From Lunularia cruciata (lineage: Eukaryota > Streptophyta > Marchantiopsida > Lunulariales > Lunulariaceae), in the NCBI GenBank assembly GCA_948567375.1, contig OX419761.1, positions 27,194,243-27,258,242 of the forward strand: DNA of 64,000 nucleotides, in the 5' to 3' direction. The translations under genes were made by a program, and so were the position numbers. The notes beneath the pieces are model-generated. The model did no database searches. It was not told where the DNA came from and saw only the letters and a list, made by a program, of their open reading frames with translations. This document shows, in pieces, positions 22,020 through 46,468 of this stretch; the stretch's first letter is position 1; each line of letters opens with the position of its first letter.

Positions 22020-23833
22020 ATACAATAGTGTCTTACATCATCAATATGCTTTGTTCGAGAGTGGTACACCGGTTTCTAACTAAAGTGAATATCACTCTCG
22101 CTATTACAATGCAACTTGGATTTCATTTGTGTAAATCCCAAGTCCTTATCCAACATTTGTAACCATGTACACTCTGCGGCTACTTTGGTTCTAACCATAT
22201 ACTTGCCTTCGAGGTAGACAGGTTACGGTTTGGCAAGTTTTTTGACTTTGACGCAGTCTATCAGGTCATCTTCAAAGGACCGTGTAATAGGGATGTGCGG
22301 GGTTGAAGAAGCTCCGAAGAAAATAAGGTTAGAGAGCCGTGTGATGGGCAACGGCTTTCACTATTCTGCTTTCTAATTTCATTCTACCCAATGCAGGTTC
22401 AACTTGAGACTCTGGACCTATAACAGAGTAACAATAGCCATGGTTTTCCAATTATAAGATTTCCAATTTATCAGATCTGTTTTAGCCTTTTGGAATACCG
22501 GATTCCTCCCATAACAACTGTAGGCTAAAGAATAGACTTTCAATTCACAAGTCCACCACTAAGTATAAAGATATAACATATTATGGAACTCCTCCTATCA
22601 ATATCTCTAGCAAAGTCAATATCCACAAATCTAAGGATGAGTCTTTCTTGCTCCTTCTCCACATCAAATACAATATCAATGCCCATTGTCCCTTCTAAAT
22701 AATAACGTATCCATGACATTGCCTCACTATGTTACTCTCCTAGACCAACCATGTGTCTACTTATTACTTTACCAACATGTGAGATATGTGGTCTAATGCA
22801 GACCATTGCATACACAAAGCTCCCAATAGCAGTCTCTATGTTGGTGTTATTTGAAACTCGCCAGTAAACATCATCCATATCCTTTCTTCTTTGTCTGAAG
22901 GACATTATGCCAAGGATAATCTAAAATGAGTTAGTAAGAGAGTACTTACAAGGTTAACTCTCTCCACGCCAAAACGTGCAAAAAAAATTCAAACTACCCC
23001 TTTTGGCACATTCACAGTCTACCCATGCTCATATCTCTATGAACATAAATTCCAAGTACTCTCTTTTAAGAATCCAAGTTCTTACTTATTGCATTTTTTA
23101 ACCTCTTCACCTCAACCATTTCCTCAACAAAATAAGAATTTCATCCACATATAGCAAGTATAAAATGATCAGATCAGAAGTATTTCCTTGGATTTTCTTG
23201 AGGTACAGAAAATACAACTTGCTTTGCTTATACCCATGCTTTACCATAAAAGAATCAAACCTCTTATACCATTATCTAAGACTTGCTTTAATTGCTATAG
23301 AGATTTCTCTAACTTGCAAACAAAGTTATCCTTTTTTTATACTAAAAAACCTTCTTGTTGATACATATAAATCTCCACTTCAAAATTCTACATACAAGGA
23401 AGTGACTATTAGTGATTGTAACTTATAGTGACTCATAATTGATTATGTTAGGTTATAACTACTAGCAATGTACAAATGGAAGATATCTTTACCATAGGTG
23501 AGAAGATCTCACTAGTCAATCTCATTTTGGTTATATCCCTTTGCTGCAAGCCTTGGTCTTGCTTGGTCTCTACTTACTTCGAGAAGCCTTTCTTTAGGTG
23601 TGACCAATTGCAACCAGTTGATAATTTCACCTGTCTTCAAGTCTAGTTCTTTGATAAAGACTTCATGTTCTCCTTTATTGCAATGTGCCATTGTTTACAC
23701 TCTTCATCATGCATTGCGTGTTTATATGAAGAAGGCTTGTCATTCTCTATGAGCAAAGAAAAAGCTATAATGTTCAAATACTCATATTTCTTTAGTGATA
23801 TGCTATCTCTATTTGAATATATAAACTCATGTG
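22020..23833 (-). mobile_element. Second Ty1/copia element, 3' part (RT onward), decayed
   Basis: The minus-strand ORF 23864-23643 has the N-terminal entry of a copia reverse transcriptase, with SYKHAMHDEECKQWHIAIKE and then NMKSLSKN; downstream bases to about 22.1 kb carry further frameshifted copia RT/RNase H-like words. The 5' continuation is on the far side of the gypsy insertion (34428 onward). The last bases before the insertion (23830-23833, tgtg) are repeated immediately after it. Confidence 0.7.
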
Positions 23834-23940
23834 TGTCGTGCGTATATACATCGCTACACAACATACATCGATGTCAACATCATACACTATAGAAACACAA
23901 CTCACACATAAGTCATACATAGACTCTAAAGTGCCACAAT
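23834..23940 (-). repeat. 107-bp direct repeat, outer copy, beside the 3' LTR core
   Basis: Begins 'tgtcgtgcgtatatac' and ends 'gtgccacaat' on the plus strand. Almost identical to 24392-24498; I saw three differences by eye. Its outer edge is the element terminus defined by the target-site duplication. The right-hand 5' LTR has no copy of it. Confidence 0.85.
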
Positions 23941-24387
23941 AATCAGATTGCTTAACACTTTCAACTCAACTCAACTCAGATCAGTACTTGATCTGTCACT
24001 CTATAAACTGCCAACAATTGGGCACTGATTACAGTCAAGCCACACCCACTCAAGCATAGAGAATCCAGGTGACGCTCGCCGGCCTCTGTCCACCATAGCC
24101 ATGAACTCGAAGGCTCAACATCAGAGAAGTGAGCTCTCTGGAGCTAACTTCAAAACTATACCCCCCTGGACTCAAGCTAGCACTAGAACCCTAACGGTCC
24201 CGCTGATGGCACACTCGACGGTGTGAACGGTGCAAAGTGACGGTGGGCCCCACCGTGAAGTCAGTACCCCGAACACCAAATCAGACTGTCGGAAAGTAGT
24301 CCTTGAGAAACTACTAGAATAACTCTAACTACTATCACTGGAACTCCACTGTCCGAGCAGCTAGATGCGGAACTACAAATGGCATGA
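23941..24387 (-). repeat. 3' LTR core of the gypsy element
   Basis: About 447 bp, matching 33978-34425 with about 20 substitutions. The shared ends are 'aatcagattgcttaacac' and 'ctacaaatggcatga'. It is bracketed by two copies of a 107 bp repeat, which is unusual for an LTR. Confidence 0.9.
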
Positions 24388-24391
24388 TAGT

Positions 24392-24498
24392 TGTCGTGCG
24401 TATATACATCGCTACACAACATACATCACTGTCAACATCATACACTATAGAAACACGACTCACACATAAGTCATACATAGACTCTAAAGTGCCACAAT
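24392..24498 (-). repeat. 107-bp direct repeat, inner copy, next to the polypurine tract
   Basis: The inner copy abuts 'cgcccccctagc' at 24499-24510, which on the minus strand is the polypurine tract GCTAGGGGGGCG. Reverse transcription would therefore start plus-strand synthesis at this repeat, making it part of the LTR functionally, although the 5' LTR lacks it. Confidence 0.85.
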
Positions 24499-24659
24499 CG
24501 CCCCCCTAGCTGGCGGTTAGTCCCTCTAACTCCAGATAGCCATCTACTCTAAGTATATGGTATACCCTCTAATGGGCAAAGATCAGGAGGCCGGGTGCTA
24601 TGGAGCCCCATCGTTAGTTGCCTGTCTGCAATCTATACCATATAAAGAATGAACTAGCT

Positions 24660-26175
24660 ATAGGTCAAGTACATCTAGGACATAACCACTGTCCCTGAGG
24701 AACCACCGTGAGAGAAGGAGTCATACATGCCATATGCCATCCTCTCGAACAGCTATCACACACTAACATAGTAGCAGCTCCACCAGAAGAGCCACATAAC
24801 ATACACCTCAAGCCTGCACGTACAAGTACCAAGCTTGGGTCCATAGTACCATCAATGTTTGGAAGGTGGCATGGCGCACAATTGCGCACATGATCCTTCC
24901 AAACAACACCATCACGTCCTTCTAACACAAGGACTCCAGATGGCAAAACCTCGCGCACTCTCAAGATAGTGCGGCCTGTAGAAACATCAAGTGTTGTTGG
25001 TGTTGTCTACTGTAGATATTCATAGTCGCCTGGATGAAATCAACGGATCGAGGGTCTATAACCTCCTCCTCAAATAGTAGCATAGCATAAAGTATCTTTA
25101 TGCTGAGCAATCGCCAAGTTCTCAAAGGCCATCGGCATCACTCTCCGAAAAATCTCTGCCCGCTGAGAACATGCGCTCATCCATACATCGGGGTCATCCA
25201 AGTCCAAAACTACAGTAGCATCTCAACGAATGGCTGAAGGTAAATCTGGATCTTGTCCATAGAGTAGAAAGTATGGAGAGAAGGATGCTAAGGAGGCTGT
25301 CAGCTGAACCGATAGCCCATGGCCAACCAAGGTAACTGGAGATCCCAATCTCCCAAGTGGCATCTCTGCAAACCATACTTTCGCAATCCTCTCTTCACCG
25401 TTTGAACCACTCTCTCTGCTAAGCCATCTGCCTCAGGGTGATCTCGGGATGTAGTACGATGATCAATCAAAGCCTTGTCACACAAGACCTGAAACTCTCC
25501 CAAGAACTCTGTACCCTGATCAGTCAAAACCTCAGCTGGTGCACCAAAATGATTAAGAACTCGATCCAGGAACAAGTAAGCTGTCCCTTCACTAGACTTG
25601 TCAGGAAGTGCCACCAACTCAATCCACTTGGAGAAGTGCTCCACCATCACCAAAACATACCGATGATGTCTCACAGTCAGCGGTAAAGGTCCGGCGAAGT
25701 CCAAACTCCAACGGTAACCCAATCCCATGATAGGTAATGGGTGTAACTGTGGCGTAGGAGCATTGAATGATGCTCTAACTTGGTCACAAACCACACATCT
25801 GGCAACAAACTGCTGCACCTTGATCTACATACCGTGCCACCAATAATGACTCTGAAGTAAGCTATATGTATGCTTTACTCCAAAATGTCTTAGCTCCTCA
25901 TGAGCATGATGGACCAACTGTGGTCTCTGTGATGGAAGTGGTACTACTCGCACTCTACCATCCTCCCATACACGCAAAAGGTGTCTACCCTCCAATCTGA
26001 ACCGTCTGGCTCGCTGAAGAACATGGTCTCTGTCCTTGGCCCCAACTGTGCCACCCACAACACGAGTGCGAAGATAGTCCATCACTTAGACATCATCATG
26101 AATGTCTTGCTGAACTGTACCAATATCTTCACTCTCTGGATCTGTGACCTCAATAACTCCTCTTGTATGCGCTGA
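24660..26175 (-). pseudogene. Gypsy integrase with C-terminal PHD finger (stops and one frameshift)
   Basis: The N-terminal zinc-binding part (26085-25825) has HHAHEELRHFGVKHTY, then in the next segment CVVC. The DDE core follows in 25818-25300: SLDFAGPLP, LTDQGTEFLG and HPEADGLAERVV supply the two Asp and the Glu. A frameshift near 25300 moves the rest to another frame. The ORF 24964-24665 continues with VVWKDHVRNCAPCHLP and ends with a C4HC3 PHD finger: Cys54, 57, 69, 72, His77, Cys80, 95 and 98, with Trp93 before the last pair (about 24805-24671). PHD fingers commonly read histone H3 tails; here it occupies the place where chromoviruses carry a chromodomain. Stops lie at 26086, 25825, 25300, 25223, 25070 and 25007. 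Confidence 0.88.
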
Positions 26176-26286
26176 GAGAGATACCACCAAAGTCTCTGCA
26201 AATATACACAAAAAGGCCGATGCATGCCAACCTGGCACCATCTCCTCATCTGTCTTACCATGCCAATGTGCTCCGGTCTGATCCTA

Positions 26287-27759
26287 CTGGCTGGGACATG
26301 GGTTTCTACTCAACCCATCTGCATCACGGTTCACCACTCTAGGTCTGTGAAAAACCGTGAAATCATACTCCTGTAAAATCAGAGCCCATTGTGCAAGCTT
26401 CCCTAAAAGCTTGTTGGACTCCATCAACCCCTTCAGTGGCTGATGATCAGTGATGAGAGTGAAGGGGTTACCAAATAGGTAACATCAAAAATGTGCTACT
26501 GCCCAAACTGCTGCCAAGCACTCTCCCTCATATGAACTATACTTCGCCTTCGCTGAATTGTTGGAGCGACTAGCATAGGCTACCACAAACTCCTTCACCT
26601 CATCATCATGCTGGGTGAGCACCGCTCCAAGTCCCAACATACTCCAATCAGTGTGAACCTGAAATGGTCGTCCCCTGATCGGTCTCCTCAAAATAGGAGC
26701 AGATATCAACCTCTCCTTGAGCTCTACAAAAGCTCTCTCCTGCTCATCTACCCAACACCACTCCTGTGTAAGCTTGGTCAGCTTCGTCAAGGCCTTGGCA
26801 ATGGCACTAAATCCTCTAACATAGCGGCGATAGAAGTTTGCCAACCCAAGGAATGCTCGCACTCTGCTCACATCTGTAGGCCGAGGAATATGTGCAATAG
26901 CCTCCACCTTGGTCTGCTGGACACCAAGTCCTCCGGGGTAGATAGTGTGACCCAAATACTCAACCTGCTCGTGGAAGAACCTACACTTCCCAGGATGTAG
27001 TTTGAGTCGATGAGATCTCAACCTCTCAAACACCTCCAACAACTGTCTCTCATGCTCCTCCACAATAGTGCTATAAACCAAAATGTCATCAATATAGCAC
27101 CGAGCAAAATCCAATCTAGCTAAGATCCTATCCATGACCCTCTGGAACTCAGCAGGAGCGTTCTTTAACCCAAATGGTAAGAACCTCCACTAATATAACA
27201 CATCCTTGCTGTGAGGATCAATAGCCCAAAATGCTATCTTGGACTTATCCTCCTTCCTGATCGGCAATTGTCCCGCTCGAAGATCCAAAGTACTGAAGAC
27301 CTTTGCATGTCCAATCGCATCAAAAATCTCCTCCGGTGTAGGCATGGCATACCGATCAGCCCTGGTCTATCGGTTGATAGGACGGTAATCTCCACACATC
27401 CGCCTATTTGTATAGTTGCCATGCATATCCTTCTTGGCTGGCATCACTGTCGCTGATGCATACTCTCCATGTGAAATCTCCACCAAACCAGCCTCAAAAA
27501 GGTCACTACTCTGGCTCTGAATCAATGTCCTCTCCATATCACTATATCGATAAGGACGTCGGAAAATTGGTGTGTTGCTAGTCAGCTCAATCCGTATATC
27601 AGGTCCCTTCAAAGCACCCAAATCCTTCATACTGAAGGCAAAACAACTCGTGTGACTCCTCAAGAACCTCCAAACCCTCCGTCTTTCCTCTCCAGTAAGC
27701 TTGGGTCCAAGATCTGGCTCCCAAGTATCCTCTGTAACTGTAGTAGGAGTGGAAGACAT
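26287..27759 (-). pseudogene. Gypsy reverse transcriptase and RNase H
   Basis: RT fingers: 27759-27367 ends CGDYRPINR at a TAG, then reads on as ADRYAMPTPEEIF and FSTLDLRAGQLPI. The palm contains FLPFGLKNAPAEFQRVMD, the catalytic CYIDDILVYS and LGHTIYPGGLGV; the thumb/connection reads FLGLANFYRRYVRGFS. RNase H follows: FQVHTDWSMLGLGAVLTQ, YSSYEGECLAAVWA and, after a TGA, LITDHQPLKGL. All pieces share one frame; stops are TAG at 27367-27369, TAG at 27190-27192 and TGA at 26485-26487. RT plus RNase H would copy the element RNA into DNA within virus-like particles. This copy is inactive. Confidence 0.92.
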
Positions 27760-28100
27760 ACTGACTGGCTGCTACACTTGGCCCTTGGGAGCAATAGTGT
27801 CATGCTCTCGACCACTAGAGGTCCCAACCTCTGTGTGAAAAACTCCCTCCACTCTAGCTGCAAGCTCCATACGTCCTTTGGCTGCATCCCATGTGGACCA
27901 AGGATGTAATCCAAGTAGCCCACGCTCACCTGGATGGACTCCAAGTAGACCACTCTCCCTAGTAGCTACTGGATGTGTCCCAAGAATACCATGTCCACTC
28001 GGTCCATCACCCCCAGCATGTGCTTGAATCGTCTCGATAGGCACAGGGCTCACCAGTGTCCGAGTGGTGATGCCTATCAAGCGCATCCTACGCTGCTCTG

Positions 28101-29172
28101 CCAAGCCAAGGCTCACAATCCAGGTCAAACAGTGCAAGTCCATAGCCTGACCTAACACCTTACGCCTAGATGCCTCTGACACTACTGGAACAGCGGTAAT
28201 CCTGGTGCAAAAACCCATCGCTTGCTCTCTCTCATCAGCATTGGGCTCCACCAACTGCTATAACTATGAGTCCCAAACAAGTCCAAGTCCTCGCTCTCGA
28301 AAAGCATGAGAGCTTGGGAAACTCATGAGTGTGGGAAATGCAGCTCTAGGCTGTCCAACTAGGTTCACCACTGCCATAGGTGACCTATCAGCCACTACCA
28401 CTGTCTGAGACTGACGTCCAGCATCCAAGATATCATCAACAAGAATGTGGTCTAGTCGCTGAATCCCATCATAACTACGTTGTAGAACCTCTCTGGGTAA
28501 GAGGTTCGTCCACCAAAGACAAAGATGATGAGCCCGTGATCCCACTCTGGCTGCATCTAACAATACAGTAGGTCCCATCCATGAATGGACCTGATGTGTA
28601 CTCGCCACCACTCTAGTGCGAGAATCACCCATCAATGGAACGTTCTCCAAAAGGTAAGCTGGAGAAATAGACTGATGAACCTGGAGATGTTGTAGTATCC
28701 GTAACATCTCCCAAAACTCACCAGAACGAGGATCCTGAAGACCCAAACCGCGGCCCGCACGTGTATGTCCCTGACATGGCCATCCAAAAATCACCAAGTG
28801 AATAGGCCCATGTCTCTCTAGGTCATGCGCCCCCAATAAGGAAATGTCTCCTGGTAAGGCCTTCTGGTAACCTTTGACTGCTGACATCGGTAATAACTCC
28901 GGATACCAATATGCCAAGTGTGCCACATGATGTAGAGAGACTCGCCTAGCAGTCTCATCTCTCTCTACATACAAGTACCTCTGTACTTGTATACCCGCCT
29001 GTAACACCGCAGCTAGTCCGGTGCTGATCCCACCAAACAACTCCAATAGGCATATCCCCTCTACTGGATACTGCCAAGCAATGAGTGTGGTATCCAGAGG
29101 TGTCAAAGCTATCGCCTCTGGAGGCTCATCCTCACACTCATCCCTTGATGGTACGAAGGCTCCACTCCAAGC
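28101..29172 (-). pseudogene. DNA (cytosine-5) methyltransferase domain inside the gypsy polyprotein
   Basis: The domain lies in the polyprotein frame between protease and RT. Numbering from the Met at 29106: motif I LLELFGGISTG (20-30), a cofactor-binding acidic turn YLYVERDETARR (44-55), motif IV GWPCQGHT with catalytic Cys111, then RGLGLQDPRSGEFWEMLRIL, motif VI YLLENV (151-156), and a motif VIII-like segment DAARVGSRAHHLCLW (184-198). After two in-frame TAGs (28264-28266 and 28258-28260) motifs IX/X continue: EREQAMGFCTRIT and KVLGQAMDLHCLTWIV. The order I-IV-VI-VIII-X is canonical (DNMT3-like), not permuted as in plant DRM. The family transfers methyl from S-adenosylmethionine to cytosine C5. 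All catalytic signatures are present, but the stops disable this copy. Confidence 0.92.
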
Positions 29173-30861
29173 CTATTGCACCAACTGATCTGCATGCTGC
29201 TGCAATGCTTCCTCTGAACTCCACAATGGAACATCCAAGGTGGATGGAACAATCCCATTTGTACTCCAAAGCCGAGTGATCTCCTTTGGTACTGGAGTAT
29301 CCTCTGCATGGGCATTCCCCTCCAACAAGTTACCAGGCCAAGTAACTGCACCGTTGAAAGCTAAAACTGATGTTGCCATGGTCCCGGACTGTAGTGAGCC
29401 AAGACTGCCACTACTGAAGCGTACTAGTAGGCGACATACCCGTCCCTCACGAGACTGCCAACTAGGTCTATAAGAGGCTGTCTCCTCCCAATAGTCAATG
29501 TTGAAACTCATGGGGTATAACACTGCTCCCCCAACTAGCACATCATATGACTCAGCTATCGTCGCAATAGCCTGAGCTCTCACCACCGAGCTATCAGTCG
29601 GATGACCAGGCTGAACCTGGACAACAAGCTCTCCACGTGTGATGTACTGTGTCGAACCACCACCAAGAGATGTCTGGATCTGAAATGGACACCTCTCCAC
29701 ATCGGTCTGCCGTAACTCCAGACCAACAACTACAGCCTTCCCCAACATAAGAGGTTGCGCACCAGAGTCTAACAAGACTCTCTGTGGTGTATAGACCTTC
29801 CCTGAAGGTCCCACCAAACGAAAGATCCCCCTCTGGTTATCCAATAGGACAACACCAGGTGTAAACCGCGCTCTCTCAAAGGCCGGTCTAGCTGGCAACT
29901 CCTCCAGTCTAGCCGCTGCTGCCTGCCATAAACCACTGGTTGTTGAACGGATCCCATGCTCCTCAACCAAGTCAGCTCCACTACCAACCACCTCTGCTCT
30001 AGTAGTAGGAACTGCACCATCCCTACTCTCACACAACGTGGCAGCCAATCGGAACACTGGGGTTGGGTCAACTCCCAATGTAAACATGTCACTAGCTGAA
30101 AATAAAGGATGCCGCATAATTAGCTGAGCCGCGCCCAACATCATGCTAGACTCAGTCTGTGTAGTAGCAGGTGGCTGACTAGCAAGTAGTCCATCATGTA
30201 CTCCATCACCACCTACCACACCTGCACTGGGATGTCTAGGAACCATGGATGTTGTCCGCAATGCCTCAGATAGCATGAAAGATTGGGGAAGTCTGACCTG
30301 TCTCCCAACCTCTCCTCTCTGTGGGTCCAACTCCACTGATGCTCCTTTAGGCTCTGGAGCACGTACTGCACTCCTAGTCACTGCTGCAGATGCATCCACC
30401 TGTGCTGCTCCGCACATGAAGTCCAAAGCATCTCTATCACCAGCATATGAGGTGGAAGCCCCAGCACCCGAATCTGATCTCCTCTGAGCAATAGCCATAC
30501 TAGCCAATCTCTGCTCCAACTGCTCAATCCGAGTGGCCATAGCTGTGTCAGAAGTAAGGGCAGGTACTGCACCTCTACTAGGTGTAGATCCTCTACCACC
30601 ACCTCTACCACCTCGTCCTCCATGAACTGGAGCTCCTCTACTACCTGCCATAGCAACCCTACCACTCTGTAACTCCGGATGTAGGTCAAAACACCGGTCA
30701 CTAGTGTGACCAAATCTGTGGCAATGCTCACATTGCCTCTGTGCTGGCTGTGATGCACCAGAGGTATCAGGTCCGCTGCCTTGAGTACACTCTCTCCTAT
30801 GGTGAGGTCCACCACAAGTCCAACAAGCAACACCACCACTCTCTAGCTGCTGCTGACCCAA
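29173..30861 (-). CDS. Gypsy nucleocapsid zinc knuckles and aspartic protease (562-aa open stretch)
   Basis: The longest open stretch in the element. The N-terminus has two zinc-knuckle-like CCHC clusters: CWTCGGPHHRREC and CEHCHRFGHTSDRC. A Gly/Arg-rich stretch follows (GGRGGRGGGRG), then a long low-complexity linker. A retropepsin-like active site is at RVLLDSGAQPLMLG (D-S-G), with FDYWEE-like protease C-terminal sequence missing or divergent. Nucleocapsid binds element RNA; the protease would cleave the polyprotein. It ends at a TAG (29173-29175), after which the same frame continues through AWSGAFVPSRDE into the methyltransferase. The upstream in-frame linkage to Gag is broken by TAGs at 30928 and 30961. 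Confidence 0.88.
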   Translation of the reverse strand: MGQQQLESGGVACWTCGGPHHRRECTQGSGPDTSGASQPAQRQCEHCHRFGHTSDRCFDLHPELQSGRVAMAGSRGAPVHGGRGGRGGGRGSTPSRGAVPALTSDTAMATRIEQLEQRLASMAIAQRRSDSGAGASTSYAGDRDALDFMCGAAQVDASAAVTRSAVRAPEPKGASVELDPQRGEVGRQVRLPQSFMLSEALRTTSMVPRHPSAGVVGGDGVHDGLLASQPPATTQTESSMMLGAAQLIMRHPLFSASDMFTLGVDPTPVFRLAATLCESRDGAVPTTRAEVVGSGADLVEEHGIRSTTSGLWQAAAARLEELPARPAFERARFTPGVVLLDNQRGIFRLVGPSGKVYTPQRVLLDSGAQPLMLGKAVVVGLELRQTDVERCPFQIQTSLGGGSTQYITRGELVVQVQPGHPTDSSVVRAQAIATIAESYDVLVGGAVLYPMSFNIDYWEETASYRPSWQSREGRVCRLLVRFSSGSLGSLQSGTMATSVLAFNGAVTWPGNLLEGNAHAEDTPVPKEITRLWSTNGIVPSTLDVPLWSSEEALQQHADQLVQ

Positions 30862-30960
30862 AAATGAGGGTAAGGGTCTAACTCCACTAGGCCCTCCACA
30901 TGCTCCATAGGATCTGGGCAGTCCACCCTATCCTCGAAAACCAATTGGGCGTGGTGCACT

Positions 30961-31590
30961 CTACTGCACTCTAGAAGAAGTCACAACTGTGGATGAGGTC
31001 TCCCTACCAAATCCAGATGTCACCACTCTCTCCTCCACCATATTGAGCTCAATACGCTCAGCCAAACCAAAGACTACTGCCAAAGTGGGCGAAGTAGCCT
31101 GCAACAACATAGCATCACAAACTCTACGTCGTAACTCCTTGTCCAGTATCCCATACCAAAACTGGACTGCCTGGGCCTCAGTAATTCCCTGAGTGAAACT
31201 GATCAGCCGCCTCATGCGAGTGTATGCCTTGCGTAGGCTCTCTCTAGCCTTCCGCTGGAACTCCTGCAAGCTCCTCAGCTTGTCAGTCCGCACTCCTTGG
31301 TAGTTCTGCCTCAAACACAAGAAGAATTCCACCATGGGGTTAAACCCCGGTACCACACCACCTCTTGCCGCGGTACCTCCACTCGTAGTAGCACTATCTC
31401 CAGCTAGTGCACCTCCACTAGCTCCACCAACACTATTCGAGCTAGAACTTGTGGGTACAGCTGATCTACTCCTGGCCACCGAGCCTGAAGTGATGGAGAC
31501 ATACTGTCTCCATAACTCAATCTCCTCCAAATGAGCTCTCCTGAACTCATGGTAGTCATCCATCGGCGGACCCTCCAGATGCTGGAACAA
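30961..31590 (-). pseudogene. Gypsy Gag, capsid-like part
   Basis: 209 residues beginning FQHLEGPPMDDYHEFRRAH and containing a Ser/Gly-rich insert, then MVEFFLCLRQNYQGVRTDKL, LQEFQRKARESLRKAYTRMR and FWYGILDKELRRRVC, typical of retrotransposon Gag (order: capsid helices, later zinc knuckles). It starts right at the inner edge of the solo LTR's TSD and ends in TAG, with zinc knuckles following in frame. Confidence 0.82.
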
Positions 31591-32328
31591 TGTAATACCA
31601 AGGGTTAGCCATATGATCTAGATGTGAAATTTGGTTTGGTAACATCTAGAATGATGTTATACATGATGGTCAAAATAGATTAGATAGAAGTATCACCAAA
31701 AAAGTACTTCTACTAATAGGGCAGAAACCGAAATAGACTTGAGAACCTTAGAACCAATAGCTAGACATATGATTTAAAGGTAAGAATTGGTTTGGTAACA
31801 TCTGGAAGGATGTTACACATGATGGACTAAACAGATCAGAAAGAGGTATCACCAAAAGGGAACTTCTACTAATAGAGTAGGAACCAAAATATGCTTGAAA
31901 TCTTTGAAGGCAATTTCGGAGGCCTAAACGGATGAATTAGGCCTTGAAAATGTGCAGATTGCCCCCCCAACACAAGAAAGGCTGGCCTTTCCTCCCCCCA
32001 GGTTTGTCTCGTCGAGAGCTTTCCAACGGTACCTTACTCATGTGATTTTGAGATTCCTACAAGAAGATTCCCTAAAAGATTCCCTCTGGTCAAAGCTCGT
32101 TTGACCAACCAGATAGGACCTAGACCAGACAGGTCACCCATCCAAGTAAGTAATCCAAGGGTAGAGCTTGCTGACATGTCACCTATCTGTGTCCCTAATC
32201 CTATGGTGGAGCTTCCTTGTGGGAGATCCTCTTTGTCTATATAATAAAAAGAAGGTGCTCCCTTGGGCATCGAATGTTTGAGTGTGCAATCTGTGTTTTC
32301 TCTCTTCTCTTGTCCTCGGAGCATTACA
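31591..32328 (+). repeat. Solo LTR inserted in gag, perfect 5 bp TSD (aacaa)
   Basis: The 738 bp insert begins TGTAATAC and ends GCATTACA, giving TG...CA ends with an 8-base terminal inverted repeat. It is flanked by aacaa at 31586-31590 and 32329-32333. Removing the insert and one TSD copy (743 bp) places the upstream Gag ORF in the same frame as the downstream Gag. A TATA-like 'tctatataataaaa' lies near 32235, and a tandem duplication sits at 31606-31900. The family differs from the surrounding element. It must have inserted after the gypsy element did; orientation is inferred from the TATA-like box. Confidence 0.92.
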
Positions 32329-32339
32329 AACAACCCCTT

Positions 32340-32585
32340 TCATGCCATGAAGGGTGTGAACAAAGTCGGGTTCCGCATCTGCTGCAGATCACACCAACTA
32401 TCAAACTCCTGGATGAAGTCATCCAACTCAATGGTACCCACTGTACCAGAGTAACACCTAGGGCCTTTGGAGGCCCCATAAATCTTGTCCATGTCCCATA
32501 ACAACGGTGCGGACACACCAAGTGCACTCTCAACTAAATCAGCTCCTGTGTCGAACTCCAACTTAGAGTCAATCTCCTCCCTCAC
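32340..32585 (-). pseudogene. Gypsy Gag, N-terminal part, separated by the solo LTR
   Basis: 81 residues with LLWDMDKIYGASKGPRCYSG and IELDDFIQEFDSWCDLQQM, a Gag-type start of the capsid region. A TGA at 32340-32342 sits seven codons before the junction with the rest of Gag. If this reading is correct, the true Gag start is further upstream (32.6-32.8 kb is partly open). Bases 32.8-33.97 kb look like untranslated leader. Confidence 0.7.
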
Positions 32586-33975
32586 TGGGACCTGAGATAT
32601 AGGCTGATACTAAGCACCACTCCGAGTAAACCCATTGCGTACTGCAGGGCTAACTCCTCTGGAATCTCCAAAGAACTCCGTCGTGACCACATAACTGCAA
32701 CAGCAAACCCAAACCACCAACTGCAACCGCAAGTCGCAACCGCAAGTGCCCCACCAAGTGCCAACACCAACTAGACACCACCCACTAATGTAACTCTAAC
32801 CGAGATAACTACACTAGGGGAAAGGCAACTTGTAACCTGCCATCATAACACGCACTCTCACGGTCTGCAAGTCATCACTTCCTGCCTCACCGGAGAGAAA
32901 CAAAGGTAGTCTGACTGGTCATCACTCCAGCCTCACCACCAAGAGCACACCAGAGCACCAACGCTCAAAAGTCAGGGCACCTCATACAAACGTGGTGCAC
33001 AAATAGGAAGCAGAGAATGGAGGGGATCCAATCACAAGAAATCTAAATGAAAACCCTCCATCTCATAACACAACACGGGACTGACTCTGCCACCATTTGG
33101 CATTTAACATAAGAGCAGTTCGTATCTAAGTCCTAAGCTACCAGGATCACCAAGAATGCGGATCAAACTGCCTCTCCTAGCCAAAGCTACATGTGTATAG
33201 ATAATAGTGGCGCAGTCACTAGGACAACAAGTGAGGGTGGACCAGTTGGCTAGGGCACCAGTCTAGGAACAAGAGATCTAGGGGTCAAACCCTGTTGCGC
33301 ACAATCTAGCAAGAAAGGCAGATTTTGCCAACCAATGACCAAGATCTACTCTAAACTAGCTAGCCTCACGCCAGCAAGCTGGCTTGCTGGCCCTTCTAGG
33401 CCTTTGTAGCCTCTCATAGCCCACAGCCCTATGCCTCGAAGCCTCCTCCAAAATCTTCTTGTTGCCACTTCAAAATCTCCTCCAAAATTGGCAAAACTTC
33501 TCCAAATCTGCAAAAGTCCTCCAAACTAGCAAAACTCCTCCAAATCTGGCCCAAAATCTGATGTAAAATCTGACATAAACCCTAAAGATGGTTGTCTGCC
33601 AAATCCCCCGCTAACTTTCCACTCGAGCCAAATTGAAAAAACGGGTTTTTCCAAATCACAATTTCATGAGAAGAGCTTCCTAACTCCACCTTCAATTTGA
33701 CTTTCTGAGCCCAACTCGCAGCAGATTGGTCCTGCCTTCACCTCCTGAGCTCAAAATCACAACACTACTCAAAAATTGCTCCTTCTTTGCTCAAAATTTG
33801 GCCAGCACTTCCGCACACCGTCCGCCTAACTGCCAAATCTGAATCACTTGAACGAGCTTCTGCACACTAGGGAAACACAGAACTTGAATCGAGCTACCAC
33901 GATCCACCGAGCTTGGAGATACCACCAACACTCAACGTTCCTGCACCCAATTTCCCCCTAACTTCACTTCTTTGA

Positions 33976-34427
33976 TGTAATCAGATTGCTTAACACTTTC
34001 AACTCAACTCAACTCAGATCAGTACTTGATCTGTCACTCTATAAACTGCCAACAACTAGGCACTGATTACAGTCAAGCCACACCCACTCAAGCATAGAGA
34101 ATCCAGGTGACGCTCGCCGGCCTCTGTCCACCATAGCCAGGAACTCGAAGGCTCAACATCAGAGAAGTGAGCTCTCTGGAGCTCACTTTGAAACTATACC
34201 CCCCTGGACTCGAGCTAGTACTGGAACCCTAACGGTCCCACTGACAACACACTCGACGGTGCGAACGGTGCAAAGTGACGGTGGGCCCCACCGTGAAGTC
34301 AATACCCCGAACATCAAATCAGATTGTCGGAAAGTAGTCCCTGAGAAACTACTAGAATAACTCTAACTACTATCATTGGAACTCCAATGTCCGAGCAGCT
34401 AGATGCGGAACTACAAATGGCATGACA
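33976..34427 (-). repeat. 5' LTR of the gypsy element
   Basis: 452 bp; on the minus strand it reads TGTCATGCC...CTGATTACA, with TG...CA ends. Matches the 3' LTR core at 23941-24387. The outer edge abuts the tgtg target-site duplication. The sequence just inside (minus strand TCAAAGAAGTGAAG) is not complementary to a tRNA 3' end that I recognise. Confidence 0.9.
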
Positions 34428-35450
34428 TGTGTAATTTTTGGACTTCTCTCCTTTGATCAATCACTTTGAGATTCTTTGAGATTCTAGGTAATGTGGAATA
34501 TTTGTATCTCCAACTTCAAGATTTATCATTAGAACATCAAAATCAATTTTATCATTCTTTATCTTGGTCATAACTAAAGACAAACTTCAACATATTACTC
34601 TCATTAAATATTAAATCTCTACAATAATACAACATTATATTGGACCCCAATTTCTATAACCTATTTTATCCTTCTCATGTCCAACAAATACACATTTTAT
34701 TTATTTTGGATCTAGCTTTGTTTTGTTATCTATTTGATAAGGACATATGCAAGATATCCAAAGATCCTAAGTTAAGAGTAATCTAAGGGCCTACTAGTCT
34801 TCTTCTCTATAAGTGTTCTATAATTAATTGTAAGAGAATGAGAAATATTTTCCAAATAATATATAAAATACTTCAGTCCAAAAGCTTGTCCGTCAAAAAA
34901 TCGATAAAACTTTCCAAAATTGTTTCTTTACATTATTAGATCTTGAATACTCTAGCCTCTTCACTTGCAATCAATTTTGATTATATGAAGATAGAAAAGA
35001 CCTCCAATTTTGGTTTCATCATGTCTAAAAATTTGATACATTTATTGCTCTAAGGTTTATTATCTTTTACCCCAAGAATTCTACAAATTAAATAACTCTT
35101 GATTGAAACATTAACATGTTTTTAAAAAAGACTTCTTAATCTGAAAGGAATATCCAAGTGCATGCTTTAGCTTATTCCACTTGCCAAAAGAAAGAATTAT
35201 ACTCAGATTAATCATATAAAGAAACATCTCAAACCTTAAATTCACATCTTACTTAAATGGCTTAGATAAACCTTAACTATCATTGAGGGACCGAACCCTA
35301 GTGCCACTTTGAACCCTAGTGCCACTTTGAGAACCATTAAGTATTCATAGATAAAGAAAACCAAGACATATTCAACAAGTACAGTATCAAACCAACAAAT
35401 CAATATTGTCTGAAGATGCAGACTTCTCTATCACGGTGGGTAGAGAATAT
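34428..35450 (-). mobile_element. Second Ty1/copia element, 5' part, decayed
   Basis: The minus strand from about 34740 down to 34430 reads KCVFVGHEKDKIGYRNW and, with frame changes, NDKIDFDVLMINLEVGD and IPHYLESQRIS. This is the region that links copia integrase to RT, directly continuous with the RT entry at 23864 across the gypsy insertion. Beyond about 35.27 kb the sequence resembles the LTR-like text near 21.5 kb. Gag and protease are not recognisable. Confidence 0.6.
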
Positions 35451-36530
35451 GAATTTATTTTTGCTTCATCCATTCAGGTAGGAGTTTATACCATTCATAT
35501 GTTTTAAAATTTTTACTCTTGTAGTTGATTCACAAACTCACTTAAGAGAAATGCTTATCTCTGACTTTTCATTTCACCTTTATGTACAACCTTTTGATCC
35601 AAGAATCAAATAGCTCACTTAAGAAAAATAAATGTGTACAAGTCTAAGGGTGCACGTCACTTGGAATAGACAACTCCTACCTTAAGAAATTTAATTTAAT
35701 TTTTCCATAAAAGAGGTTTATCCATGCTTTATAATCTCATCGAACATCCATCCAAAATAATGGATCAATAGAAATATTATTTTTTAAGTTTTATAATTTA
35801 TTTTTATTTTATCATTCATACTTTCAATCTTTTACTCTTATCAATCTTGTTTATTTATGTACTACGAGTACTTAATACTCAAAGAAATCTATAAGTTTGC
35901 AGTAGTAGATCATGTTTATTATTCACTCTCATTCAAATATCGATATATGTTAATTGATCAATTTATTTTCAGATTCTCAAATAGGAAAATTTCTATGCAA
36001 CAAAAGTATGGATTTGTATAAAACAATGTTTATTTGATCTCCATTACCTTGATATCAATATACTATGCAAGCCTCAATAAATAATATCAATCAATAATAA
36101 TATAATATAAGCCTCAATATTAATTATCATTTAAAAATCATTAATGTTTAATATTTAAATTAAGTGGATTTATTAATTTTCATTATTTCTTTTATATGTC
36201 TAATCATCTCTAACTAGACTTAAGTTATCTTTTATGATGTGCATGAACTTGTGTTAGTATGAATCTATAAGAACTAAATGTAAGTTAGCTTTTGTACAAT
36301 AAAGTAAATTTATGAAGACATTTTATAGGTAAAAATTCTACTAATTCATATTTTATGCAATATAAAATATAAAATTTATTATTATTATTTAAGAATGTCC
36401 TTAACTAGCTTGAACTAGCCTAGATAAGGTGTGGAACATCTAATTGTTGACAAGTCAATGAAGTCATTGATATCAAAATGTTTAGGCAAGGCTTTATTTA
36501 TACCCTATATTGTAAAACAAGTTCATAGAT
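35450..36530. other. AT-rich interval, no gene seen
   Basis: Low-GC sequence with no sustained ORF or recognisable element. It separates the copia element from a LINE tail fragment. Confidence 0.5.
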
Positions 36531-36589
36531 ATGTTATTTAGCAAGGCCATTAATTATATGGAGTGATGTACACGACTTTTGACACAGAA

Positions 36590-36860
36590 AATGTGTGTCC
36601 ATTGTTCTACAGGGTGTAGTGGCTAGTGCAATCCATAGGAGAGCAATAACATTAGGTGATGTTTCTTTGGATGCGCCATTTGTGTGTGGACCGTAAGACT
36701 TGCATAGCTCGGATATCTTAGGTGCAGTAGGGCAGATTTCCCACATAGACTCTATTGGGGCTTAGCCCCATTTTACCTATTTTGTTTCTCCCTTGTAAAG
36801 CTTGATGGGATCTTTCCATCATTCATTTTTTCTACGTGGTTGCCTTCTACTTTTTAATTG
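36590..36860 (+). mobile_element. 3' tail fragment of the RLE-type LINE family
   Basis: The phrases 'catrggagagcaataacattaggtgatgtttctttggatgc', 'gacttgcatagctcggatatcttagg' and 'agactctattggggcttagcccca' match the 3' ends of the elements at 45.4-48.7 kb and 59.6-60.8 kb. The fragment ends 'ctacgtggttgccttct', corresponding to 'ctacgcggtcgcc' in the other copies. Only the terminal ~250 bp is present, as expected for 5'-truncated target-primed insertion. Confidence 0.85.
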
Positions 36861-37299
36861 TTACTTAAAATTTGATATTCAATAAAGTCATTGACTTTGA
36901 ATTGCTTTGGCATAAACAAGGCTACTATGGTAACATAGTGTCAACCAAAAAATATATAAATGGTAAGTAACAAGTGATTCCTCCAAGGACATGAGACTTA
37001 AATGGCTACGAATGAAGAGAAATGTCACTAGTTGTAGTTCATTTATTATTTCCCATTTAACCTCTTGGGCAAGAACTACTCCTAGAAGAGTGTATTGTTA
37101 CTCCATGTAGCACACTAAGTAAAAGTGAAACTAAAGATCACATTCACTACAAGCATGTTCCAAGTTACCCTTGAAGATGATGGTTCTCTTCACTCCAAAT
37201 GCACTTCAAGCAATTCACTACAAAGACTTCCACTAGGAAGCTACATACTACCCTTCCCTCAAAATGCACAATTAAAAAACTGTCTTTATGACTGCCAAA

Positions 37300-40200
37300 T
37301 GCACTCTCTTTCTGATTTTGTGGTACTATCAATGCTCTAAATCCATATTGACTCTTCAATGCATAGGTTCATTCTTTTGGGTCCCTCAAGAATCCTAATC
37401 AAGTGCAAATACATCTCTTTGTACTCAAGCACTTGTGAACCTATTGTGAAATTCCTCACCACTACTCAACATATACATTCATCAACACTTTGAATGGAAA
37501 GACATAATTTGCAAAGAACTCAAGGTTCTTTTTATTGAATTTCAAATGGTTGTGAATAAACTCAAATGCCTTTGGGTAGAAGCCTTAAGTACATTTGTAC
37601 TCCATCCCAAAGGAAAATTAAGAACCTAAGTGGATTTCTTCAAAATATTATGTTGCTATCTACATCACATACTTAAGATCCTTATTTTATCTTATCTTAT
37701 TCACATGTAAGTTGATTAAGCTCCTTACGTTTGTTAGGGAAGGGGTCAAGCCTTCCACAAAGTTAATTTGAATTTACATTCTTTGGACCTAGACTCTAAA
37801 GTCCTATACACACCTCAAAGACACTCCTCTAGAATTATTTACAACTACAAATGCCTACAACTAAGACTAGCATCTAAGTCTAGAAGTACTTTGGGTTATT
37901 CTAGGACAAGAGTTCCTCCTTCAATGAGATGGAGTACTACTCCTTCCGCTTTGTGCTTTATGATGAAGAACCACTTATCCTTTAAAATTTCTAAATAAGA
38001 TTTTGGTTTGTTCTTTACATCCTGTTATCTTTAATAAGTAGGTTTTGACATAGTTTTGTAAATTTCCTAGTCGAATGTTCTTTAAGTTTAAGTGATAGCT
38101 AGTCCATTTGCAATTCTTCATATGTTCTTCCCTCCAACTTCTAGACCAGAAACTTGAGCTCATAGATCTTTGCCTTTGTTCTTTTCAAGTGCACTTCTTC
38201 CTTTAGCATACCTACAAAGTAATCCCTAGCTTCCTCCAATTGTTGAAGTACATTGTGCTTCTCCTTCTCCAAGTGTTGAATCTTTGTCTTCAATCCTTGC
38301 AATGCCTCTTGCATTTGGACTTGAGCCAACTCCTTCTCCTCCTTCTCTTTCTTCAACTCCTTGGCTAAGTGCTCCAATTGGGCTGCCATCTCCTTGTTAT
38401 ACTTGGTCATTTGCAAGTCATTTGCAAGTTTACTTGGTCATTTGCAAGTTTTGGTTATGACCAAAACCTTTGAATTCTCTAACTCACCACAAATGCTTGC
38501 CACTTCTTTGTTCCTTGCTTGCAGCTGGTCTTTGTACCAAGTTTCATGTTCTTTGTCTCCATTCACAAGGTTTGCAACTCAAGTTGTAGCCTTCTCCATT
38601 CATCCTCCTAGTATTATGTCTCTTCATCCCATCATTCTCTTGCATGAGGTCATTTACCTTCCAAGCTTCTTCCTTGTAAAGGTTCCTTATCTTGGTTATC
38701 CCTTTCTTGGATCAATCATCCTTTGCCTTCTAAATATAGATCCCCTTGTGCATTTGGCATACTAAAGTGGTGTAGTCCACCAAATCTAGGCACTCCTCTT
38801 GATATTGGGGTAATAAAAGTTCCATGAATTGAAGTGTTGCCTCTATCGAGTGTATGATGAAATGTGCCTCTTCTTTGATTGGCACTCAGGTTGCTTGGAC
38901 CAATGCTTCCCCTGATTGGTCCACCTTTCTAATAAAGGGAATTTGGCTACTCCCTCTATATCAACTTCTACTTCATCTACAACTTCCATTACTTGGTCTT
39001 CTTTTGGCCAAAGGTTTTTGGCTTCATATTGAACTTTGGACCAAAGTTCCTCATCTTGCATGTACTCAAGATGATCTTGTTCTTTTTCTTCAACACCTAC
39101 TTCTTGATTTGGATGGGGAGGTTCTTTGGCAAGAAGTGCAATCTCCTCCTACACCTCTACTCATCCTTCTTGTTTTGCTCCTTCCTTGTGCCTCACTTGT
39201 TGGTGTGGATTTGGAACTAATTGCAAATCTTCATGTTGTTCCTACTCCTTCACTTTGGAAGCAAATCCTTGCAAGGTAAAAAATTCTTGCTCCTCTTCTT
39301 CATCTTTTTCTTCTTCAATGTCTTTTGACTCTCCTTTTAATGAGGACACTTCAATCATCTTAGCACTCAATTTGAAATCTCTTTGATGCTTCAATGCAAG
39401 TGATTACTTCTTGTAGTCCTCCTTGGTAAGTAAAGTCATCCTCATGTAGAAAAGGATGGTGAATGGTACTAAATAGGTCACTCCTCCTTCTAGCTCAAAG
39501 TCTTGATGCAACATTCTTACTTGCAAATAGAACATTTGCACCTAATTTATTGCCTCTACTTAACAAATATAGTTGAAGAAGACAACATGGTTGTTAGTCA
39601 AGTAGGTTGTTTGCTTTATCTTAAATAATTTCATAATTTCCTCCACAATTGCACTCCAAGATGGATCTTTATAAATACTAACTCTCCATCTGTTATTTTG
39701 TGACCTTTTGTCATTGAAGGTTGCCTGAATCTTGTCAATCAGCTCCCAATAAAAAAACTTGATATTTAGTGTCATTTTCTTGATGGTCGTGTATCTATGA
39801 TGAGTACCATCTTCCAATGTTCTTTGTTCCAATTGAATGAGTTTCCTCTCAAATCTCTTGAAGTCTTCTCCTCTTCTCTCTTTGCTTCATAGATGATGGT
39901 AAAGCCACTCAATTCATAATTCCATATCGAGAACCACCAAAATGCTTGCTTTGGATGACTTTGGTCCTACAATGGATGGCACATTTGTTGATTATTGGTG
40001 TCCAAAGTATAGCATTAGGAACCTTCCTAAAAAAATTGGGAGTGAATTCCCCATGTTGCCTATCAAGTAAGGAAGAAGTCGAGTGCAAAGGCTAAGCTGA
40101 CTTTGAGTGCTAGACCACTCCAAAGATTAAGAATACTATGAATATCTATTAAGACTTAGTGAATTTCACTCAATCTACTTTGAAGACCAAATTGCTTTTA

Positions 40201-40650
40201 TTGAAAGTGAAATTGATCAATTGCACTTGGTTTTATAATCAAATTCCTTGGTCTTTCTTTAGTCATTTGGTGGTTGAGGAGTTGGTGTGCACTCATCTTC
40301 AGCACATGCAAAGTATGTGGTGGAGAGCAAGTTGTCATTTCTATCACTTGTCATGCTCTTGGTGAGTCATACTTTTCCACACATGTGAAATATTTCTTGA
40401 GCAGTAGCTCTCACACATACAAGGCCTTGGCCAAATGTGAACAATCTTCTTTGAATGCTAATGGTCATTGGTGGCAATTCTTGGTCTAGGTTGCACCACA
40501 TTCAAATCTATGTATGGTCTTTGGGTGCAAAGGCTTTTGGGTATAAAGGCACTTGGCATGTATTCTTTGCTTCCTACCATCCTTTGGCCTTATCTTACTT
40601 GGCATCCTTCCCTCCAAATGCCTTTGACTTTGTACTCCTTCAGAATTCTT
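37300..40650 (-). pseudogene. Decayed gene for a long acidic coiled-coil protein (possibly element-encoded)
   Basis: Minus-strand coding-like pieces follow one another with many stops and frameshifts. From high to low coordinate: RPKDGRKQRIHAKCLYTQKP and HRFECGA; LPPMTISIQRRLFTFGQ and VRATAQEIFHMCGKV (about 40.6-40.37 kb); DPSWSAIVEEIMKLFKIKQ (about 39.6 kb); FKLSAKMIEVSSLKG and IEEEKDEEEEQEFF (about 39.3 kb); AKNLWPKEDQVMEVVDEVEV and FPLLERWTNQGKHWS (about 38.95 kb); then a strong heptad-repeat coiled coil MAAQLEHLAKELKKEKEEKE (38416-38141). I do not recognise a named family. Size, coiled coil and decay would fit a retroelement Gag-like or repetitive host protein. No RT or integrase is adjacent. 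Confidence 0.5.
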
Positions 40651-40748
40651 CCTATTGCTACATCACTACCAATGACATCCTCACTAAAGAAGTTTCCTTC
40701 CTAATCTATAAATTCTTTAGCCACATCTTTACACATAAGAATGATTTG

Positions 40749-40751
<3 letters not shown>

Positions 40752-40820
<69 letters not shown>
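40752..40820. repeat. (AT)n microsatellite
   Basis: About 34 uninterrupted AT dinucleotides. Any ORF through it (Ile-Tyr repeats) is an artefact. Confidence 0.97.
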
Positions 40821-40821
<1 letters not shown>

Positions 40822-40869
40822 CTAAAATTGTTACTTGTTTGTACACATATAATTTAAGGATTAGCTGAC

Positions 40870-45090: not shown

Positions 45091-45486
45091 TCTAAGAAAA
45101 CGATTTGCTCTAAAGTTTGTGTTTGATCCAAGTGCAAGGGAGTCATCTTAGAGAAATCGTGTCAGAATCTTTTAAAGTCGTCAATTTAAATGAAATTCTT
45201 CTAGATAGAAATAGTCTAGTAAATTATTTCAAATGAGCTAATCTCATCAAAGAGCACTGACAAACTAACTGAGGATGCGGGTGAGAATACGTGTATACAA
45301 AACAAGGAGTCAAATTTAAAGTAATTAGTTTATTTTGACAACCTTCCCGGTCTTAATTGGAACAACTGGACTATCAAAGCCACATTTTGTCTCATAAGTG
45401 GGAAAAAGGCGACCGCTTAGGAAAAATGAAGGATGGGAAGACCCCATCAAGCCGTACAAGGGAGAGACAAAAATGGTAACATGGGG

Positions 45487-45997
45487 CTAAGCCCCAATAG
45501 AGTCTGTATGAGAAATCTGCACTACCGCACCTAAGATATCCGAGCTATGCAAGTCGTACGGTCTACACACAACTGGAGCATCCAAAGAAACATCACCTAA
45601 TGTGATTGCTCTCCTATGGATTGCACCAGCCACTGCCCTCTGTAGAGCAATGGACACACGCTGTCTAAAGTAAGCTACAAAGTATGAGAGTGAGAGTGGT
45701 ACCCCCTGACGCCTAACATGATTAAGCTCTTGTGCACTCCCTGACAAATGTGTCAAATGCTATGTCCATCGCTCCATATAACTCCAAGGCTAGAGGAACA
45801 AAGAAGTGACCTAGCTGCATGCCCCTATACTTGGAGACCTTGCGACCTGCTGCTGCACTTGCCGCCCATCCAGGGGGATGGGTAATCACTCCCTTTGAAA
45901 CTGTATCCCATGTAGGGTCCGTGACCACGACATCCGCTACTGTCACCTGATCATCTCGAACCAAGTATAAGTCTGCCCTGACACGTGTCATTTGCAA
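45487..45997 (-). pseudogene. LINE restriction-like endonuclease domain and C-terminal extension
   Basis: 45997-45722 reads TRVRADLYLVRDDQVTVADV, then VVTDPTWDT and, further on, AAGRKVSKYRGMQLG. The R..ADL....DD...ADVVVTDP followed by K...KY fits the catalytic core of PD-(D/E)XK nucleases used to nick target DNA for target-primed reverse transcription. A one-base insertion near 45735 relative to the plus-strand copy at 60.49 kb shifts the frame. The alternative frame continues HVRRQGVPLSLSYFVAYFRQ to RPYDLHSSDILG, implying that the intact protein extends about 80 residues beyond the nuclease. Confidence 0.75.
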
Positions 45998-46468
45998 CGC
46001 ATACGGATGCTCCCTCCAAGCTAAGTATCCACTCTCTCATGCCATAGCAAACACTATGTCTTTAATGGCATCATGTGTAGCTATCCTCTGTCCTCCAAAA
46101 AGACACCGTGTCATGTGGACCACCGCTGCATCTAGTGTAGAACCACACTCACAAGTGAGTAGTGAAGATGCAGATGGGTGGACCAAACCTAGGCGAAACC
46201 TCATCGCTGTAGAGAAAGTAGCCGATGCGAGTCGGAAAGCCCTAATGCATGGTCGAGCTAGGATCCATGAGCCTGCACCCTTGCCGGAGCAAGAGCGTAG
46301 ACGTGCTCTAGTAGCCTGAGGAATGGACGAGTCAACTAAGAGAGAATGTAGCGTATGCTCACACTATTGCTCCACCAAGGAAGACTATAGACCTCTAGTC
46401 CAATCAGACAATAGTGAAGCAAACGATGGAAAACCCTCTCGTGCTCGTGGGGATAGACTATCTCTCGT

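Follow-up and report, generated by a model that had tools for sequence, protein, structure and literature searches.

The closest described system to the element reported here is KnitGypsy-Dnmt3 of the charophyte Klebsormidium nitens, which combines gypsy domains with the repeat structure of DIRS elements (de Mendoza et al. 2018, PMC5890265). In the main text of that paper DIRS-type repeats are defined by the order A-coding region-B-A-B, the charophyte capture of a DNA methyltransferase (DNMT) is placed in the lineage of K. nitens, and the KnitGypsy domain showed no activity in yeast, a result that its authors judged inconclusive. The same text reports that the DNMT3 domains of SymbioDIRS retrotransposons carry out de novo CG methylation in yeast. 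According to the accessible text of a 2019 paper, methylase-encoding transposons occur in green algae and charophytes and not in land plants, "such as tracheophytes" (PMC6338049), and the presence of DNMT3 in streptophyte and dinoflagellate retrotransposons was restated in 2025 in the available part of PMC12344493. Two further kinds of system are relevant. Chromoviruses and Tcn1-like gypsy elements of non-seed plants include moss gypsy elements with a chromatin-reading domain, and no DNMT is named in the accessible portions of the papers describing them (PMC2864245, PMC3350952). UAG readthrough, with the CAR YYA context of TMV, is treated for the tobamovirus replicase and for RIRE2-type rice gypsy elements, which are cited as readthrough candidates; the available text mentions no DNMT upstream of the stop in either (PMC2754532).

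Here we describe a Ty3/gypsy-type element of 10.6 kb on the minus strand of a 64-kb stretch of Lunularia cruciata DNA (the window), at about 23834-34427. As far as the main text of PMC5890265 goes, it is like KnitGypsy-Dnmt3 in its gypsy domain composition, its DNMT3-type domain, which lies in the Gag-Pol region, and its A-coding-B-A-B repeats (one copy). This likeness is one of description, and the host range differs, the family of the window element being found also in bryophytes whereas KnitGypsy-Dnmt3 was described from Klebsormidium; no Klebsormidium-named protein was among the matches listed in our DNMT, profile and integrase-PHD searches. The dinoflagellate SymbioDIRS-Dnmt3 shares the DNMT3 domain, the A-B-A-B repeats and the existence of two alternative domain orders, but it is described in the same text with a tyrosine recombinase where the window element has a DDE integrase, and it is an element of a different class. 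Chromoviruses and Tcn1-like elements, in turn, have a chromodomain where the window element has a PHD finger. The main text of PMC5890265 contains none of the terms PHD, zinc finger and moss, with the proviso that its Fig. 4c may still show a PHD, and "stop codon" occurs once, in a Symbiodinium figure legend. In the titles and abstract openings searched, we found no description of bryophyte DNMT3 retrotransposons, and none of PHD-bearing gypsy integrases or split-repeat gypsy elements in the titles and abstract openings searched for these; KnitGypsy and similar terms occurred in one of the publications searched. Within this literature, the land-plant members, the PHD finger and the leaky stop appear to be unreported.

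Results

Structure of the element

The order of domains is gag-CCHC-protease-DNMT3, a stop codon, and RT-RNase H-integrase-PHD (Table 1), identical to that of an intact relative, L002, described below. Reverse transcriptase, RNase H and the rve integrase gave clear Pfam matches, the Gag match was weak (E 0.028, 15.1 bits, cut-off 24.1), and the protease had no Pfam match in this copy. The assignment of the protease therefore leans on relatives: the corresponding stretch of L002 matches Asp_protease_2 at E 0.00078 (20.5 bits, cut-off 24.3), and PF13650 occurs together with PF00145 in the precomputed domain labels of protein P0132. The element is thus of the Ty3/gypsy (Metaviridae) type according to its protease-RT-RNase H-integrase order and its rve integrase, with the protease below the Pfam cut-off. 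The window element has an rve integrase and a target-site duplication, and no tyrosine recombinase of the DIRS type was found in it; nor was a chromodomain found after the integrase, this place being occupied by the PHD finger in both the window element and L002. Its DNMT lies downstream of the protease and upstream of RT, as the initial annotation had stated. The same annotation took it for a domain of the polyprotein before RT, which is right as to position, although the DNMT stands on the Gag-protease side of an in-frame UAG and not simply inside Pol; it also missed the PHD finger after the integrase, and the copy is decayed.

Table 1. Features of the Lunularia element, in window coordinates.
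Feature	Position	Strand	Evidence or remark
Repeat A, 5' terminal copy	33978..34427	-	Element 5' end TGTCATGCC at 34427; repeat alignment
Gag-like ORF	30961..31617	-	Weak Retrotrans_gag match, E 0.028, below cut-off
CCHC knuckles and retropepsin-like protease (LLDSGAQPLMLGK)	29173..30927	-	Knuckles by eye; L002 homology
DNMT3-type cytosine-C5 methyltransferase, motifs I-VIII	28264..29172	-	PF00145; DNMT3A is the best solved structure
DNMT motifs IX/X and C-terminal extension	27772..28257	-	Same frame, after premature stop; without a Pfam match of its own
In-frame stop UAG CAG CCA at the DNMT/RT border, probable readthrough site	27766..27774	-	Context compared with L002 and TMV consensus
RT and RNase H, interrupted by stops	about 26485..27771	-	Pfam; 62.6% identical to L002 pol (tblastn)
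Integrase core, rve, DDE type	25300..25824	-	Pfam; 90% identical to P0178 over 172 columns
PHD finger, integrase C-terminus	24671..24805	-	PF00628, E 2e-11
Polypurine tract CTAGGGGGGCG, directly before internal B	24499..24509	-	By eye
Repeat B, internal copy	24392..24498	-	B-NN-A junction at 24383-24398
Repeat A, internal copy adjoining 3' terminal B	23940..24389	-	Repeat alignment
Repeat B, 3' terminal copy	23834..23940	-	Element 3' end ...CGCACGACA at 23834; repeat alignment
Target-site duplication TGTG, left	23830..23833		Flank comparison
Target-site duplication TGTG, right	34428..34431		Flank comparison

Using a tRNA-iMet primer pattern, the only primer tried, we found three window matches with at most two mismatches, none of them inside the element, and none in L002. 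Rfam gave no match at the gathering threshold. The gag region seems to be broken at 31600-32345 by about 0.7 kb of foreign sequence with a tandem 156-nt duplication (31597-31908), and by eye an N-terminal piece of gag apparently resumes near 32340-32460.

The methyltransferase domain

The DNMT ORF (302 aa) matches PF00145 at E 4e-07 (30.2 bits, cut-off 22), which answers the profile check that the initial annotation had proposed. Motifs I, IV, VI and VIII lie within it in the canonical order that had been reported, while motifs IX/X fall in the next ORF, past a stop, and motif VIII reads AHHLC. The order is not rearranged, unlike that of DRM enzymes, and DNMT3A is the top solved relative of the ORF alone (E 5.1e-08). 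An 11-row family profile matched DNMT3A (E 3.7e-20) above chain 4onj (2.2e-12), which we take to be a plant DRM-type enzyme, DRM2 (4.6e-9), a tRNA-C38 (Dnmt2-type) enzyme (2.5e-6) and M.HhaI (2.8e-6); none of the 57 solved-structure rows obtained with this profile was a DNMT1, MET1 or CMT chain by name. The domain is thus of the DNMT3 family, having matched DNMT3A above the DRM, Dnmt2-type and bacterial enzymes.

Conservation was assessed in the matched stretches of 294 retrieved proteins together with the window element and L002. The motif IV Cys is conserved in 156 of 159 covering rows, the motif I Gly in 120/127 and the motif VI Glu in 155/172, and the two Args of motif VIII in 143/176 and 149/169, this motif reading AHRPR or AHRLR in 101/169. 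Such conservation speaks only indirectly to purifying selection on the DNMT. Motif IV (GWPCQG) and motif VI (ENV) are intact in the window copy, in which the full set of catalytic motifs is nevertheless not preserved, with AHHLC at motif VIII and a stop before motif IX; given AHHLC, its domain is not expected to be active. Three proteins, P0202 (Volvox reticuliferus), P0209 (Tetrabaena socialis) and P0220, keep a DNMT-derived region from which the motif VI Glu is gone, together with one motif VIII Arg in P0202 and both in P0209 and P0220, and by eye also the PC of motif IV. These losses of the Glu and Arg(s) argue that catalysis is not required in every lineage, and the degenerate region could possibly be a non-catalytic relic with another use.

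The stop codon between DNMT and RT

At the DNMT/RT border the frame reads UAG CAG CCA in the window element (27774-27766) and UAG CAA UCA in L002. Both contexts, compared in the DNA of these two elements, fit UAG CAR YYA, which PMC2754532 reports as the consensus that TMV readthrough requires. On the sense strand TAGCARYYA accounts for one of 207 TAGs in the window element and one of 101 in L002, each time in frame at this border, and for 5 of 2045 TAGs in the whole window (both strands). An indirect third case is provided by P0131 (DNMT) and P0177 (pol), separate proteins whose longest contigs are both 6232. The stop is not universal: by eye, no stop separates DNMT from RT in P0188 and P0192, nor does one interrupt P0190 between the last DNMT motif and RT. 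If the UAG is leaky, the DNMT would belong to the Gag side and be made in larger amounts than RT and integrase.

Repeats and ends

Repeat A (23940-24387 and 33978-34425) measures 448 nt and its copies are 95.5% identical, whereas those of repeat B (23834-23940 and 24392-24498) measure 107 nt and are 97.2% identical. In the sense of the element the order is A-internal-B-A-B in this one copy, and not the two ordinary LTRs of a Ty3/gypsy element. Hence, of the LTRs and target-site duplication noted in the initial annotation, the duplication (TGTG, 4 bp, flanking both ends) stood and the ordinary LTRs became split repeats. The outer ends TGTCATGCC and GCACGACA form a near-perfect inverted repeat, TGTCRTGC (7/8). 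Since the boundaries were chosen by the TG/CA rule, a 4-bp duplication alone is weak evidence; the ends (TG...CA, TGTG duplication) look in this copy like the work of a DDE integrase, despite the DIRS-like repeats.

The internal junction consists of the end of B, two extra bases and the start of A, and reads CACGACA-AC-TATCATG in the window element and CACGACA-GC-TGTCACG in L002 (7048-7063), giving the shared form CACGACA-NN-TRTCAYG. Because the search pattern was drawn from the same two sequences, it is the conservation of the junction and not its rarity that counts. The integrase may recognise the B/A ends in joined form. By eye, L002 also has ctagggggggc before its B, polypurine-like as in the window element.

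State of this copy and its surroundings

A tblastn search with the L002 proteins crossed 16 stop codons and one frame change in the window element; it aligned in three stretches, of which two overlap a little. The reading frame of the element changes once, between integrase and PHD finger. Between the two A copies there are 20 differences in 448 sites, of which 17 are transitions and 3 are CpG-associated. This is a decayed fossil copy.

The CpG o/e of the element is 0.43 (flanks, 0.68 and 0.57), and other repeats of the window, at 36-42 kb, are still more depleted (0.05-0.15), so that we discarded CpG depletion as a footprint of self-methylation, for which it is not diagnostic.

Several other sequences lie in the window. 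The stretch 36001-42000 is AT-rich (GC 0.28-0.38, CpG o/e 0.05-0.15) and consists of old, heavily decayed repeats, and 40752-40819 is a 68-nt self-complementary tandem repeat in 6-nt steps. A 1.2-kb inverted duplication, 89% identical, occupies 45407-46608 and 59607-60790, with a third partial copy at 36593-36846. There are also a second RT fragment of a different kind, possibly LINE type, at 47146-47781 on the minus strand (RVT_1, E 5.3e-09), and a Ty1/copia-type one at 8141-8608, likewise on the minus strand (RVT_2, E 1.3e-34), in a stretch with a CpG o/e of 0.06.

Relatives of the element

Searching with the DNMT ORF returned 134 proteins at E<=1e-3. Among the best 120 of these, 11 carried an organism name, one being a bacterial MAG and the other ten bryophytes: Calypogeia fissa (3), Marchantia polymorpha (3), M. 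paleacea (1), Riccia sorocarpa (1), Sphagnum troendelagicum (1) and S. tenellum (1), as counted among the matches listed. Contamination is unlikely, since 8 of the 10 bryophyte matches are on contigs longer than 1 Mb. The family profile, with which 8000 candidates were scored, retrieved 288 proteins, the best 120 of which were examined. In P0121 from Calypogeia one ORF runs from the protease-like region through the entire DNMT, and in P0136 from Sphagnum the protease-like region likewise continues into the DNMT.

One scan of prokaryote genomes yielded 39 pattern-matched stretches, among which L002 (contig CADCWO010000201.1) was the sole relative. It comprises 9285 bp with an end-to-end overlap of 127 identical bases, and encodes gag-CCHC-PR-DNMT in one frame (1162 aa from the contig start to the stop), then UAG, then, still in that frame, RT-RH-IN-PHD (1047 aa); by its coordinates an ORF starting at 8582 continues across the overlap into gag-CCHC-PR-DNMT. 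Against the first row of the family profile it reaches 46%, and it is distant from the window element. Binned as a cyanobacterium, L002 is almost certainly a mis-binned eukaryotic element. P0036, named as a Candidatus Obscuribacterales DNMT, may be mis-binned in the same way.

No relative was found in viral contigs. A further search returned a single contig, whose methylase is of bacterial or phage type (L001, 32%), and phage methylases reached about 31-32% against P0121 (best 5 of 172 records).

The carriage of a DNMT is a family trait, judging from the relatives that hold the domain at the equivalent place, and the DNMT is a gene of the element. The initial annotation, which saw here a gypsy element of the charophyte kind of de Mendoza et al. 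(2018), is borne out in this. It had further reasoned that copies lacking the domain would point to a chance insertion; the relatives, which are not copies from the same genome, do carry it there.

PHD finger and relocation of the methyltransferase

The PHD finger matches PF00628 at E 2e-11 in the window element and E 4.3e-10 in L002, and the solved chains matching it (best 60 of 98 and of 88) include CHD4, UHRF1, KDM5, ATXR5 and MLL3. Several of these PHD fingers read unmodified H3K4. The L002 integrase tail with its PHD finger retrieved 262 proteins, and a DNMT was found in the same ORF in 41 of the best 120 examined. Named matches among those listed comprise Marchantia (P0179), Haematococcus (P0186), two Volvox species (P0202 and P0263), Tetrabaena (P0209) and Chromochloris (P0217, from the label Chrzof1); of the five algal rows, only P0202 and P0209 have DNMT profile matches, both degenerate. 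Six proteins (P0210, P0219, P0246, P0251, P0259 and P0269) share an extra stretch after the PHD finger, ...YWGRVHF...RP.YF.V.FEDG... or near, by eye perhaps a Tudor- or PWWP-like domain.

In the 51 proteins listed that have both RNase H and integrase, the DNMT lies between the two in 19 and before RT in 3, and none was scored in the remaining 29, a count made by score within that ORF, which includes P0190 and does not extend to any upstream ORF. Two of the assignments, P0279 (before RT) and P0281 (between), amount to only about 52 bits. Where an intact-looking DNMT separates RNase H from integrase, we call the arrangement green-algal solely from the five named algal rows that share its branch.

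In an integrase-PHD tree of 60 rows, all 19 RNase H-DNMT-integrase rows fall in one 29-row group (SH-aLRT 98), whose remaining members are 2 rows that lack a DNMT and 8 of other kinds, and the window integrase groups with P0178, a metagenome protein, and Marchantia P0179 (support 98). In a DNMT tree of 50 rows, 18 of the 19 relocated rows (P0281 was excluded) are in a 27-row group (support 99), and the window DNMT belongs to a 6-row group that includes Calypogeia and Marchantia (support 99). Two phage methylases, DNMT3A and L001 lie outside the element rows, as a designated outgroup on long branches with an unsure root. The main split is common to both trees, which argues for an old joint inheritance of DNMT and integrase and one relocation of the DNMT. 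P0270 and P0287, without DNMT by score, nest in a branch where others carry it, so the DNMT may be lost in places. Both trees are quick ones without bootstrap and with an unsure root, their rows comprise no native plant DNMT3 genes, and long rows are present (P0188, DNMT3A and L001 in the DNMT tree; P0279 and P0281 in the integrase tree), for which reasons they do not prove a single capture.

Discussion

The element belongs to a kind already described; its host range is wider and its anatomy more detailed than in the main text of PMC5890265. As the best explanation of this anatomy, to which we assign a probability of about 60%, we propose that the main translation product of the family would be Gag-PR-DNMT and that leaky reading of the UAG would give a minor product, Gag-PR-DNMT-RT-RH-IN-PHD. 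Particles would then contain more methyltransferase than RT, and the double-stranded cDNA could be methylated in them before integration, so that a new copy would arrive in the genome already resembling host DNA. The initial annotation had likewise suggested that the enzyme may methylate the element's own DNA copy, perhaps to mark new copies. The PHD finger would substitute for the chromodomain of other gypsy elements and may tether the integrase to a state of the histone H3 tail. The integrase would act on the TG/CA ends where B meets A; this points to an intermediate that is circular or carries the junction, like that of DIRS-like elements. Packaging and cDNA methylation are, we infer, the likeliest reading.

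A different origin, namely that a host DNMT gene or pseudogene landed by chance in one gypsy copy, might be entertained from the single element copy in 64 kb and from a DNMT tree built without native plant DNMT3 genes. We reject it as extremely improbable, because relatives carry the DNMT between protease and RT (Calypogeia P0121, Sphagnum P0136 and the intact L002), and the DNMT and integrase trees have their main split in common. As to the repeats, the full A-B-A-B arrangement was seen in one copy and could be an oddity of it, produced when a two-LTR circle of an ordinary element (LTR = B+A) was opened inside one LTR; the polypurine tract just before B in the window element and L002 (by eye) is what would be expected if B begins the LTR. 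It is at A-start and B-end, however, that the TGTCRTGC inverted repeat, the TG/CA ends and the 4-bp duplication are located, and the main text of PMC5890265 gives KnitGypsy-Dnmt3 this A-B-A-B order too, so we regard this account as unlikely, though a serious one.

Other alternatives concern the function of the domain. The enzyme might target other DNA, silencing rival elements or invading DNA viruses or altering the host methylome, and such roles have been proposed for transposon methylases generally (PMC6338049, accessible text), an effect on the host having been raised as possible for dinoflagellates (PMC5890265, main text). The position of the DNMT on the Gag-protease side of the stop would favour an action within the particle instead, and we consider these other targets improbable. 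Somewhat less probable still is a domain that is no longer enzymatic and serves the Gag-protease product structurally or by binding nucleic acid, after catalytic loss in some lineages: P0202, P0209 and P0220 do retain the region despite their losses in motifs IV, VI and VIII, but most covering rows keep the catalytic Cys of motif IV and Glu of motif VI.

A broader scenario, which we advance tentatively and with less than even odds, would be that a green-lineage family acquired its DNMT3 once, before the algal/land-plant split, retained it from then on, and later moved it from its place before RT to one between RNase H and integrase in the branch that groups with green algae. Through the leaky UAG the enzyme would be made in proportion to the capsid and would methylate the element's own cDNA within the particle, and the DDE integrase, guided by the PHD finger, would integrate it from the B/A junction.

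An element type described from one alga is thus also found in land plants, in liverworts and peat moss, besides green algae, and the bryophyte matches run against the wording on land plants in the accessible 2019 text (PMC6338049). The presence of carriers in Marchantia, Riccia, Calypogeia and Sphagnum makes it approachable in genetic models to ask whether an element methylates its own DNA before landing and whether it is helped or silenced by this, with the PHD finger and the putative leaky UAG as two concrete handles. If the broader scenario holds, the element would set its own epigenetic mark before it arrives and choose its site by reading a histone mark.
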